This document shows positions 14,198-17,909 of a stretch of DNA of 42,540 nucleotides, one piece after another. A program made the position numbers and the translations under genes. The notes beneath the pieces are model-generated. The model was given only the letters and a program-made list of their open reading frames with translations. It ran no database searches and was not told the DNA's origin. The stretch comes from Chryseobacterium gleum. GTDB lineage: Bacteria; Bacteroidota; Bacteroidia; UBA10329. Within the stretch, counting starts at the first letter, position 1. Each line of letters starts with the position of its first letter. The stretch is taken from contig CAMDOM010000027.1 of assembly GCA_945903645.1 (NCBI GenBank), positions 1 to 42,540 on the forward strand, read 5' to 3'.

Positions 14198-14606
14198 AAA
14201 CTAAAAATCGGCAACATGCAATGCCCTATTGAAAAAGCCAAAGGCCGCAAAGACCGAATTGCACCGCTACCCAAGTTTATTGTAGAAATGTTGCGTGAAT
14301 ACTATAAGCTCTATCGCCCATAGCAATGGCTATTTGAAGGACAACGCAAAGGCGAGCAATACTCTGAGCAAAGCCTACAGCAAGTATTTAAACAGGCGTT
14401 GGCCAAAAGTGGAGTAAAAAAAACAAGCAACACTCCATTGGCTGCGTCACAGCTATACTACCCATTTGCTAGAAGGCGGCACGAATTTACGCTATATACA
14501 AGAACTATTAGCTCATCAAAGCAGCAAGAAAACCGAAATTTATACCCATGTGAGCACCAAGAAACTAACCGACATTAAAAGCCCTATCGAAGGAATGGAC
14601 ATTTGA
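14198..14606 (+). pseudogene. Broken tyrosine recombinase (integron-integrase/XerD-like), C-terminal part
   Basis: The remnant reads as the catalytic domain of a phage/integron-type tyrosine recombinase. In one frame: EKAKGRKDRIAPLPKF (catalytic Lys), then an in-frame TAG at 14321, then WLFEGQRKG and SEQSLQQVFKQALAKSG. After a frame change near 14425-14432 the next frame gives [17 protein letters not shown] (HxxR box), [13 protein letters not shown] (final H box, normally GH), and IYTH with the nucleophile Tyr. It ends with SPIEGM and TGA at 14606. The N-terminal SAM-like domain and first Arg box are missing. One stop plus one frameshift make it non-functional. It sits directly before the putative cassette and may have been its integrase. 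Confidence 0.85.
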
Positions 14607-14672
14607 ATAATATCTGTAATTTCACAGCTGTAAAATCAAAAACATATACATATCCCACCAAATTAGATGGGT

Positions 14673-14706
14673 TATGTCTGTAAAATTAATGGGCGTTACA
14701 GACATA
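14673..14706. repeat. Perfect 11-bp inverted repeat with 12-nt loop
   Basis: TATGTCTGTAA at 14673-14683 is exactly complementary to TTACAGACATA at 14696-14706. It lies in the non-coding gap between the recombinase remnant and the AT-rich secreted gene. The right arm is preceded by G (G-TTACAGAC), the geometry of a recombination core site. Another CTGTAAAAT copy lies at about 14629. No coding sequence was found across 14607-14771. Confidence 0.7.
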
Positions 14707-14713
14707 TAAACAA

Positions 14714-14728
14714 GTTACCTGCAAGCTT
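14714..14728 (+). repeat. Left boundary repeat of the putative cassette
   Basis: GTTACCTGCAAGCTT here is the inverted counterpart of AAGCCAGCAGGTAAC at 16797-16811, with 13 of 15 positions complementary and 9 in an unbroken run. The two copies bracket the AT-rich secreted gene. In integron cassettes the left boundary matches the inner core of the cassette's own attC in just this way. Confidence 0.6.
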
Positions 14729-14771
14729 AAGAGCACTCGTCCTAAAATAGGTTGACTAAAATTAAATATAA

Positions 14772-16775
14772 ATGAAAAAAGAAATTAAAAACTATTTATT
14801 AAATATAATTACAGCTATATTCTTTACGCTTTCTGTAAATGCTCAAACTACAATTTTACCAGTTAATTCCTATGGTGTTTGGGATAGATCAAATGCATAT
14901 GACATTTCAGTTAATACTGATTACAACTATTTGCGAGGTAAAAGTGCTGATGTAAACTGGGAAGATGTACAACCAAATAACACAAATCAATACGATTGGT
15001 CTGAGATTCAAACTATATTACAAGCAGCTTACAATAACAATCAGATGGTTAATATAAGCGTAGGAGTTGGTCCTGATGCTCCAGTTTGGATTTACGCTAA
15101 TGGTGTGCCGAGTGTCACTACTAATGATACACAACATCCAAATTGGACACAATATCCGTATTATTTGGACATCAATTATAAAACATATTATTTCAATATG
15201 ATAGAAAATTTCGGCAATTTCTTACGAACACTACCTACAAATCTATTTAGTAAAATTGCATATATTCAAGTAAAAACTGGATGCACAGGGGATGAAGTTG
15301 CCTATAAAGGAACACCTCTTAATTCTTCTTATACTATTTCCGATAATCAATGGCGTGCATTCCGTTTAGAAGTATTTGAAAAATTTAGACTAACGTTTAA
15401 TACAGGTAATAATAACACCCAAATTGGACTTCTTTTTAACAATATTGATCCAGTTGACGAACCCTTGGAATGGCAATGGGTAACCAATAATGTAACTTAT
15501 GGATTTGGAACAAAAGGCGGAGCCTACGCAAGAGGTCACCATCTTTCAGATGAATTAGATTTTAAAACTACTTGGACACCTTATCTTGTTAATCCACAAG
15601 GATTACATTTATTTTCTGCAGCAGAAATGGACCAAACATGGACTAAACCATTGTACCAAATTAATGTTCCATTAGGGTTTTATTGGGGTGCATTAAGCGG
15701 GCTTAATACGGGTCTTTCCGTTTGGCTCGTTACCCAAAGTGCTTTGCAAGAAGCACAATCAAGACCAGAATTACATGACGTTTTTAAGATGTTTAATAAA
15801 TATTCCAAGCAAGTTTATCCTAGTACTACAACAGCAGCTTACTCTATTTTTCATGAAGGATTAAATTCTCAAAATACTGTTAAATTTCCAGAAAATATAT
15901 ACGGTCAAGCCAACCAATCAAATCAAGCTCGTTATACTGCAATATGTAATGCTTATTCAGCCAGAGGTGCACAAATGGATCATGTTTTTGCAGCCACTAA
16001 AGGTCAAGTTTGGCAACGTGATCAGCAAACAGGGTATAATGATGCTGGATGGAATATTGAAGAAGGGAATTACGAAAGATGGATTACTCAAATAAACCCT
16101 GACGCTACCTCAATTGGTCTTTTCAGGGTAAGGGGTGTTATTAATTCCAGCTCATCAAAATACGACCGTTTTGCACGTTCTTTTGAAAGCAGTAGTGGAA
16201 AAAACACAATGTATTTTAATTTCCATTCCGATGTATTTACCCTTTCAGATCCAGACAGTTTAACATTTAAAATTACGTGGCTCGATAAAAACGCAAATTC
16301 AACTTGGGCATTAAAATATTATAATTCATCAGGCTTACAAACTGCCATAAATATAACAGGTATTGGTGATAATCAATGGAAAACAACTAACGTAACAATA
16401 CAGAATCCAATTATTACCCAAAATGGCGTTTTAGGTTGTGATTTTATGTTGGTAAATACAGATAATATTGATGATATCTTTCATGGCATTGAGGTAGATA
16501 TTACGCGAACAAGTACCTTATCTTCTATTGATTATAATTCTCAAAACTCTGAAACATTAATTTTTCCCAACCCAACATCGTCTATAATTTATTGGAATAA
16601 AAATATTGTGTCAGATGAAATTATTATTTATAATTCAAAAGGGCAAGTAGTTTCAAATGTCAATAAACCTGAAAACAATTCATTTAGCTTAATAAATTTG
16701 GAGAAAGGGATTTATTTTATTGTATTTCTTAAAGAGAAAAAAAGAGTATTAACCAAGAAAGTAATAAAAGAATAA
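14772..16775 (+). CDS. Secreted TIM-barrel glycoside-hydrolase-like protein with T9SS sorting tail
   Basis: A secreted protein of 667 residues. The signal peptide is residues 1-24 (ending LSVNAQ). Residues of about 30-400 resemble a (beta/alpha)8 glycoside hydrolase of GH42/GH5 type: ADVNWEDVQPNNTNQYDW, GVGPDAPVWIY and a strand ending in GCTGDE (D174, E175), where an acid/base could sit. Residues of about 460-590 look like a jelly-roll carbohydrate-binding domain. The last 75 residues (FPNPTSSIIYW, LEKGIYFIVF, TKKVIKE) are a type A T9SS tail, so the protein goes to the cell surface or medium. Substrate and family number cannot be assigned. The gene is AT-rich against its surroundings and lies in a putative mobile cassette. 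Confidence 0.7.
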   Translation: MKKEIKNYLLNIITAIFFTLSVNAQTTILPVNSYGVWDRSNAYDISVNTDYNYLRGKSADVNWEDVQPNNTNQYDWSEIQTILQAAYNNNQMVNISVGVGPDAPVWIYANGVPSVTTNDTQHPNWTQYPYYLDINYKTYYFNMIENFGNFLRTLPTNLFSKIAYIQVKTGCTGDEVAYKGTPLNSSYTISDNQWRAFRLEVFEKFRLTFNTGNNNTQIGLLFNNIDPVDEPLEWQWVTNNVTYGFGTKGGAYARGHHLSDELDFKTTWTPYLVNPQGLHLFSAAEMDQTWTKPLYQINVPLGFYWGALSGLNTGLSVWLVTQSALQEAQSRPELHDVFKMFNKYSKQVYPSTTTAAYSIFHEGLNSQNTVKFPENIYGQANQSNQARYTAICNAYSARGAQMDHVFAATKGQVWQRDQQTGYNDAGWNIEEGNYERWITQINPDATSIGLFRVRGVINSSSSKYDRFARSFESSSGKNTMYFNFHSDVFTLSDPDSLTFKITWLDKNANSTWALKYYNSSGLQTAINITGIGDNQWKTTNVTIQNPIITQNGVLGCDFMLVNTDNIDDIFHGIEVDITRTSTLSSIDYNSQNSETLIFPNPTSSIIYWNKNIVSDEIIIYNSKGQVVSNVNKPENNSFSLINLEKGIYFIVFLKEKKRVLTKKVIKE

Positions 16776-16796
16776 CAGGTGCTATAATTAAGAACA

Positions 16797-16937
16797 AAGC
16801 CAGCAGGTAACAAGGGTTTGGCAAAAGTGGGGCTGAAGTGCTAACTTAAACATTTGTGCTTTTTATGAACATTTGTGCTAAATCGAACATTTGTGCTTTT
16901 AATCCCCCACCTTCGCCAAGCCCCAAACCGTTAATCC
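16797..16937 (+). repeat. attC-like imperfect inverted repeat with internal triple repeat
   Basis: The left arm (16808-16832, TAACAAGGGTTTGGC then AAAAGTGGGG) pairs with the right arm (16904-16933, CCCCCACCTTCGCC then AAGCCCCAAACCGTTA), with a few bulges. The roughly 70-nt loop holds three direct copies of AACATTTGTGCT. Outer boxes are GCAGGTAAC and GTTAATC. A long folded arm pair with TAAC/GTTA ends, just after a lone gene, is the layout of a cassette recombination site. No gene was found in 16776-17006. Confidence 0.55.
16849..16897 (+). repeat. Three direct copies of AACATTTGTGCT
   Basis: Identical 12-mers at 16849-16860, 16868-16879 and 16886-16897, spaced 19 and 18 nt, each followed by a T- or A-rich spacer. 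They occupy the loop of the attC-like inverted repeat. Confidence 0.9.
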
Positions 16938-16949
16938 TACTCCCCGTAC

Positions 16950-16990
16950 AAAAAAGCTATTCATCCCACGTAAAAAAAATGGCGGGATAG
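16950..16990 (-). terminator. Candidate rho-independent terminator for the ATP-grasp gene
   Basis: Reading the minus strand past the stop at 17007: CTATCCCGCC, a T-rich loop, GGGATGAATAG, then CTTTTTTG. An ATCCC/GGGAT-centred stem followed by six T residues fits a terminator. The stem is interrupted, so confidence is moderate. Confidence 0.4.
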
Positions 16991-17006
16991 GTTCAGTTTG
17001 TAAAAT

Positions 17007-17909
17007 CTAGTCTCCGAGTTGCTGGCAAACTGCCTCGGCCAAGGCAATAACCGCCTCAGGGCAATTGCGCAACCATAGTTCGGGCTCTATCAGCTCCAGT
17101 TCCGACACCGCTGGCAGATTATCATTGTCCCAAATCATATCCACACGGGCATATACAGGCGCAGGATGGCACAACGTTACCACGTGTTCGGCCAAATCTA
17201 TTTCTTCTGGGCTAGCAAGGTATGGAGCTGCCGTACCTCCAAAGTCATCTTGCACGCGGTAGTCGCCTTCTTTGGCTGTTTTAATAACAGCATGGGTATA
17301 CTTGCCTCCTATTACCATTAGGCTTACCTCACCTCGGGTAACCACATTGTACTGAAACGGCTGCAACAGCATCGCCTCGGCATGCACCAACGACCGAAAC
17401 ACCATTTCGTGCGCACCAACATTCGTAGGGTCGAGCCTATAGGTGTGTCTGCCACCGCCAGATATGGCTGGCTTTAGCACAGTTTCGTCCCAACCGGTAG
17501 CGTTGTGCAATTCGGCAAGGGTTACGTATTCGCCCTTTTCTAAAAAAATGGTTTCGGGTATGCGAACCCCATTGTTTTCAAGATATTGGAGGTAGTGCTT
17601 GTCCCAATTCCAACGGATCAATTCGGGTGCGTTAATGAGTTGGGTAAGCCCCTCTACCCTATTCATCCACGCCACAAACTCCTGAAAACGATGGAAATAG
17701 TTCCACGTAGTGCGAAACATGATAGCTGTGGTGCTGCTCCAATCAAAATTAGGGTCAGCCCAATCCTTGCGAATCACGCGTTTGCCATGGTTTGCCAACG
17801 CTTGAATAAGCAGGGCATCATCATCCAAAATTTGCTGGGTGTACCAATCTGGCGTATCGGTATCGAGATAGCGCTCTTCGGTAAGCAGTGCGAGGTCGTA
17901 TAGTTTCAT
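17007..17909 (-). CDS. ATP-grasp family protein
   Basis: An ATP-grasp fold ligase (glutathione synthetase/RimK-like) of 300 residues with unknown acceptor. Visible blocks are an N-terminal pre-ATP domain with FRTTWNY, PELIRWNWDKHYLQYLENNG (linker), VLKPAISGGGRHT (ATP lysine and glycine loop) and LLQPF. These are followed by GEVSLMVIGGKYTHAVIKT, DYRVQDDFGG (substrate-contact strand) and YARVDMIWDN with VSELELIEPELWL, giving the Mg-binding Asp/Glu. Members usually join a carboxylate to an amine or thiol through an acyl phosphate. It is monocistronic: the cassette-like region lies downstream and the sensor kinase is divergent. It starts at the ATG at 17909. Confidence 0.8.
   Translation of the reverse strand: MKLYDLALLTEERYLDTDTPDWYTQQILDDDALLIQALANHGKRVIRKDWADPNFDWSSTTAIMFRTTWNYFHRFQEFVAWMNRVEGLTQLINAPELIRWNWDKHYLQYLENNGVRIPETIFLEKGEYVTLAELHNATGWDETVLKPAISGGGRHTYRLDPTNVGAHEMVFRSLVHAEAMLLQPFQYNVVTRGEVSLMVIGGKYTHAVIKTAKEGDYRVQDDFGGTAAPYLASPEEIDLAEHVVTLCHPAPVYARVDMIWDNDNLPAVSELELIEPELWLRNCPEAVIALAEAVCQQLGD

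Follow-up and report, generated by a model that had tools for sequence, protein, structure and literature searches.

Features of the Locus

The window, i.e., the whole stretch of 42,540 nucleotides that was analysed, carries on one strand the remnant of a tyrosine recombinase gene, an attI-like site, and a single gene with an attC-like site behind it, after which a dispersed repeat begins (Table 1). Comparison with related loci supports segment 14715–16930 as a single integron-type cassette residing in the attI-like site of a decayed integron. An integron-type cassette had already been proposed here in an earlier note, which placed it at 14715–16937. The type is borne out by the recurring ends, arrays, boundary rule, and whole-cassette transfer described below, and the left end was placed correctly, but the cassette proper stops at 16930, and both the attI-like site and the recombinase remnant lie outside the span given in that note. 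These two features, as well as the non-IntI recombinase family, are additions to it.

Table 1. Coordinates of the features discussed (window positions unless a contig or a locus is named; G000 is the window's own genome).
Feature	Position	Strand	Remarks
Tyrosine recombinase remnant of integron	14234–14606	+	C-terminal part only; in-frame TAG and frameshift
attI-like site	14607–14716	+	110 bp; ends ATAAACAAG^TT; between remnant stop and cassette
Perfect 11-bp inverted repeat	14673–14683 TATGTCTGTAA / 14696–14706 TTACAGACATA	.	Inside attI-like site
Gene cassette	14715–16930	+	Left end/R'' complementarity; boundary rule in related loci; transferred cassette
Cassette gene	14772–16775	+	667 aa; signal-like N-terminus; T9SS type A sorting domain
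attC-like site	16803–16936	+	R'' GCAGGTAAC 16803–16811, imperfect stem, R' GTTAATC 16930–16936
Dispersed TTAATCC repeat	16931–17000; G000:C67:872–939, C4:637–703, C4:90331–90400
Related recombinases under non-Bacteroidota labels	L130, L136, L137, L150; L133, L139, L140, L152

Ends of the Cassette and the attC-like Site

The crossover points of the cassette are set after G14714 and after G16930, so that its left end reads G^TTACCTGC and matches the R'' box GCAGGTAAC of the attC-like site. The complementarity of the two ends, from which the cassette had first been inferred, was found exactly as claimed: GTTACCTGCAAGCTT (14714–14728) pairs with AAGCCAGCAGGTAAC (16797–16811) at 13 of 15 positions (87%), one ORF lies between them, and an imperfect inverted repeat finishing in CCGTTA follows. 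Within this pair, the core GTTACCTGC/GCAGGTAAC is perfectly complementary. The AAC–GTT spacing of the attC-like site is 118, R' is paired with R'' in the bottom-strand fold, and a hairpin detector run over the whole window gave exactly one match (16804–16935).

In isolation the 15-nt pair is weak evidence because 16 inverted pairs occur in the 4 kb around the cassette, and no gain in stability over shuffled sequence is seen for the hairpin (z +0.49 for the top strand, −0.40 for the bottom strand). Whether the ends arose by chance is settled instead by their recurrence in related loci together with the single detector match in the window. An Rfam search of the window gave no match, no tRNA site was found in it, and its own cassette was not seen in other genomes.

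The dispersed repeat starts exactly at TTAATCC and contains a hairpin, ATCCCRC..GCGGGAT. At three places in the genome it follows the last attC, and at a fourth it occurs without an attC; a favoured right boundary is possible, as is a repeat with no connection to the integron.

The Cargo Protein

The cassette gene was described in the earlier note as hydrolase-like, its product being a large T9SS-exported protein that would be unusual as cassette cargo. Export by T9SS is supported by the sorting domain at the C-terminal tail (PF18962, 5e-9; TIGR04183, 4e-11), and the product is indeed the largest among the listed cassettes, where a pattern search found another T9SS-like tail only in locus L090. 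The hydrolase part has weak support. No glycoside hydrolase (GH) match to the window protein was obtained from Pfam; homologues of 29–30% identity occur in one other genome of 395, as parts of longer proteins, and one distant homologue reaches 18.7 bits with GH42, below the gathering score of 21. A search against PDB sequences returned the sorting domain only (E 0.21), and the predicted structure, with a mean pLDDT of 38, is unusable. A secreted, GH42-like glycosidase is thus possible but not shown.

Recombinase Remnant, attI-like Site, and Flanks

The recombinase remnant reads towards the cassette. Its two matching pieces, 14234–14431 and 14382–14603, are 85% identical to a paralogue on contig C62 of the same genome, and PF00589 is recognised on two pieces (1.5e-6 and 5.5e-11). 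The remnant is too short to be scored for the IntI insert. Contig C62 harbours a second relic integron (L046, about 3.7–6.6 kb of the locus) consisting of a truncated recombinase, a near-identical attI (C62:9019–9140, 93% identical to that of the window), and a different first cassette with the left end GTTAGCTGTA and the R'' box TACAGCTAAC. Its attC is cut short and followed by a gene that reads like a transposase, a label with no search behind it. More attC-like sites are found on contigs C67 and C4 of the window's genome and in other genomes of the genus.

The inverted repeat inside the attI-like site has counterparts elsewhere: attI loci each bear repeats or an inverted repeat with letters of their own (e.g., CAGACATA/TATGTCTG, GCGAAAC..), in many cases near or around CCCAAATTTGGGT. 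From their sequence alone, these repeats resemble accessory sites for recombinase binding.

To the right of the integron, the gene at 17007–17909 is absent from eight other genomes of the genus, so this region may have been acquired as well. In genomes G004, G006, and G008, other sequence takes the place of the integron behind the left gene, and no clean junction was available for an empty-site comparison.

attI and Cassette Arrays in Bacteroidota

A search with the protein of the C62 paralogue yielded 80 loci, mostly from Bacteroidota (Flavobacterium, Kaistella, Algoriphagus, Cyclobacteriaceae, and many MAGs), in many of which the recombinase is intact and about 350–400 aa long. Since similarity of the recombinase decided which loci were taken, and sites within a genome are akin, the counts given below are not independent. 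In many of the loci, a site ending in ATAnACAAG^TTR lies after the recombinase stop codon; the consensus TATAAACAAG^TTR was obtained in 32 loci, the site is within about 250 bp of the stop, and the sequences diverge exactly after GTT. For 38 of 54 loci, a downstream xxxAAC box agrees with the bases following GTT at 6–7 of 7 positions, as against 7.8% with shuffled ends. The arrangement that recurs in Bacteroidota is thus an attI, ATAAACAAG^TTR, beside a recombinase, then up to nine cassettes (the longest arrays hold 9 in 6.9 kb). At position +10, counted from the G of GTT, every one of the 32 first cassettes has an A, with variable bases between; this A is perhaps part of the R' core site.

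Since attC loops vary too much for a covariance model, a stem detector written in Python was used in its place; it fixes YAAC and CGTTR, and these letters are therefore no evidence. The hairpin sites it detected number 101 over the 216 kb downstream of the recombinases, only one in 255 kb upstream, and three on the reverse strand, with AAC–GTT spacings clustered at 117–119 nt. In 84 of the 101 sites, no mismatch occurs between R'' and the R' before it over the six variable positions, compared with 1.4% after shuffling; the six positions lie outside AAC and GTT, and one of them, beside AAC, is restricted to Y. Cassette ORFs follow the array direction in 63 of 72 cases. The rule that a cassette's left end is complementary to its own R'', read before from the window pair, hence holds for the related loci, and the non-consensus attC family proposed for the window recurs there as hairpin sites. 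Absence of such ends from other genes of the phylum would have refuted the cassette; they are present.

The second sample comprised the 30 loci that matched best among 395 Bacteroidota genomes drawn for the purpose; at least one of the 30 (locus L182) repeats the first set. Here the attI motif is found in 28 of 30 loci and a 6/6 left-end match within about 1.5 kb in 17 of 30; 18 hairpin sites lie on the forward strand, none on the reverse strand, and three upstream. The recombinase family occurs in 115 of the 395 sampled species at E ≤ 1e-70, though some of these members are without the extra N-terminal region described below and are perhaps not linked to integrons; arrays are common beside the best-matching members.

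The stem itself was analysed in 87 attC sites with distinct arms, same-genome sites again being related and the counts not independent. Position i of the left arm pairs with position i+4 of the right arm across 13 bp, then follows a conserved A (88%), mostly opposite C (A.C in 57 of 87), and then 6 bp more. Arm pairing amounts to 68%, compared with 38 ± 1.3% when arms are shuffled between sites, and all kinds of pairs occur. The bottom strand is the better folder in 77 of 96 sites, which fits the strand selection of integrons (PMC2727003). Overall, the sites meet the attC criteria of integrons: R''/R' boxes, a GTTR crossover, an imperfect palindrome with an unpaired spacer, and strand asymmetry.

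Transfer of a Cassette between Families

The first cassette of Flavobacterium fragile (L092:1686–2734, 1049 bp) shares 98.4% identity with a cassette of genome G119 (L175), which is from a different family. G119 belongs to family group f9 and the Flavobacterium-like genome G076 to f5, the G076 locus L182 being the same as L097 of F. sinopsychrotolerans; among the 80 loci, the L175 recombinase is closest to that of Algoriphagus lacus. At both GTT boundaries of the cassette, the identity between L092 and L175 breaks off to background level, and the two loci have different attI sites. Such a pattern is the signature of site-specific cassette exchange, as far as sequences can tell without an experiment and without the responsible enzyme having been shown.

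The Recombinase Family

The catalytic residues are invariant among 15 family members. The distance between KGxKDR and HxLRH is 63–71 in 76 of 77 members, compared with 72 in Xer from the genus of the window and 106 in IntI1; residues 181–239 of IntI4 (PDB 2A3V) stand opposite only 17 profile positions of the family. With TIGR02249, the family scores 198–223 bits against a cut-off of 265, and the match is split at the position of the IntI insert. Thus, the additional domain specific to IntI (the I2 insert) is absent from the family recombinase, which on these profiles and alignments is not IntI.

Most members possess an extra N-terminal region of about 80–115 residues. Two of six members score 22.5 and 23.9 bits with HARP (PF07443; gathering score 25), which is not listed for the other four. 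With NF040815 (XerA; curated cut-off 220), six members score 209.7, 228.5, 228.3, 219.7, 237.3, and 218.5 bits, and PHROGs returned general integrase families only. A predicted structure of the recombinase (pLDDT 84) is nearest to archaeal Xer/XerA and IntI4 from residue 69 onward; no match was listed for the N-terminal domain, residues 1–65 having been barely tested.

No canonical IntI above the cut-off was found in the window's own genome, nor in 16 of 17 genomes with the family recombinase, nearly all of which have detected arrays. The Bacteroidota genome G302 contains both a canonical IntI (415 bits) and a family member (L211, G302:C1:3153556–3154491), indicating that the search is able to detect a true IntI.

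Mode of Action and Alternative Explanations

Comparison between loci demonstrates an attI, attC sites, arrays, exact cassette boundaries, recent whole-cassette transfer, and an insert-less recombinase beside the arrays. The explanation that accounts for these data as a whole, with an estimated probability of about 0.84, is that a chromosomal integron of a type spread across Bacteroidota, with recombinase, attI, and cassettes on one strand, has left its relic in the window. In intact relatives, the recombinase would most likely join the attI crossover (ACAAG^TTR) to the G^TT of a cassette attC, whereby whole single-gene cassettes would be captured, excised, and exchanged. A single-strand hairpin route, as in classical integrons, is likely because the attC sites are imperfect palindromes with a better-folding bottom strand. 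What is inferred is that the neighbouring recombinase does this work, its activity included, that the folded bottom strand is its substrate, and that hairpin recognition is aided by its extra N-terminal region, which is HARP-like in some relatives. The window copy could be moved only with a recombinase supplied in trans, as its own is broken and one cassette is left. That the system works like an integron is strongly supported by comparison, with no experiment behind it.

Nevertheless, it is not an integron by the strict definition: IntI is defined by its additional domain (PMC9668308), and this criterion fails. The I2 helix is held to have given IntI its ability for single-strand recombination (PMC7790495), a view on which the insert-less family bears directly and which it makes testable. 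It may be proposed, with slightly more confidence than doubt, that Bacteroidota possess a large second integron lineage in which an insert-less Xer-like recombinase acts on folded attC, perhaps with the N-terminal domain replacing the I2 helix. If so, cassette capture arose by another route or a pre-IntI stage has been preserved; and if the system is active, a large cassette pool has been overlooked because searches look for IntI. The interest accordingly lies in the recombinase family revealed, the window itself being a decayed copy.

Among the alternatives, the most durable is that these are ordinary IntI cassettes moved by a canonical IntI that is encoded elsewhere in the genome or acted in earlier hosts, the neighbouring recombinase being a bystander. 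The rules that hold for attC and cassettes here are the classical integron ones, the array-type genome G302 does have a true IntI, and the action of canonical IntI from other hosts cannot be excluded. Against this, an attI is situated directly behind the family recombinase in one locus after another, and the near absence of IntI from the genomes searched further makes this explanation improbable.

Still less credible is an Xer- or dif-type single-gene module or a small transposon, in which a simple recombinase acts on double-stranded sites and which resembles an integron in outline only. The recombinase core is nearest to archaeal Xer/XerA, as this explanation would have it, yet tandem arrays with R'' matching the previous R', a fixed attI, and long covarying hairpins with strand-biased folding are integron traits, and dif modules consist of two short sites flanking a gene. 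Finally, a chance juxtaposition of an ordinary gene and an unrelated inverted repeat or terminator, for which the ordinary fold energy and the frequency of short inverted pairs in 4 kb could be adduced, can scarcely be entertained given that the same ends, order, and spacing recur phylum-wide, far above controls, and that a whole unit has moved between families.

Comparison with Known Systems

The relic integron and its relatives share with IntI integrons (the class 1 integron, the Vibrio superintegron) an attI adjoining the gene of a tyrosine recombinase, tandem single-gene cassettes that are mostly in one orientation and exchanged whole, and attC sites with R''/R' boxes, a GTTR crossover, an unequal central spacer, and a folded, strand-biased stem. 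They differ in that the recombinase lacks the insert around patch III and stays below the IntI model score, usually has the extra N-terminal region, and reads towards attI rather than away from it. Their attC stem is marked by a conserved A.C mismatch of its own, and its central spacer is about 1 nt long instead of 5. The “reverse” arrangement is known from Treponema integrons, where the integrase is likewise transcribed towards attI, in the cassette direction; the recombinase there is treated as IntI (PMC3607928), unlike the insert-less family. XerA and archaeal Xer (NF040815; PDB 4a8e, 5hxy) offer the nearest profile (210–237 bits) and the nearest fold (Z 21–22) but have neither the additional N-terminal region nor the linkage to attI/attC arrays.

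According to IntegronFinder 2.0, integrons are very rare in Bacteroidetes, with a single complete one in Salinibacter ruber (PMC9024848). As far as the accessible part of Smyshlyaev et al. 2021 goes, the insertion is incompletely conserved in an “integron-like” subgroup of tyrosine recombinases, to which the family may belong, and no cassette arrays or attC are described there for members without the insertion (PMC8138268). The NCBI family name of NF040815 already includes “integron integrase”, so that annotation has brushed against the family before. No description of such a system was found in the full-text literature, most subscription papers and preprints being outside its coverage, and a widespread kind of Bacteroidota integron has apparently been overlooked so far.

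Wider Distribution

Related recombinases are also present in records labelled Nitrospinota, Nitrospirae, Altiarchaeales, Clostridia, Bacillota, and Paenibacillus (Table 1). Some of the loci with non-Bacteroidota labels have an attI-like end or one hairpin; either the spread is wider or the contigs are mislabelled.

A plasmid-borne copy of the system is found at 9.0–13.8 kb of locus L207 (plasmid NZ_CP041688 of Chryseobacterium sp. SNU WT5). Among its cassettes, a unit without a long ORF but with an identical hairpin of spacing 134 is present three times. Plasmid copies in Chryseobacterium suggest that some platforms are mobile themselves.
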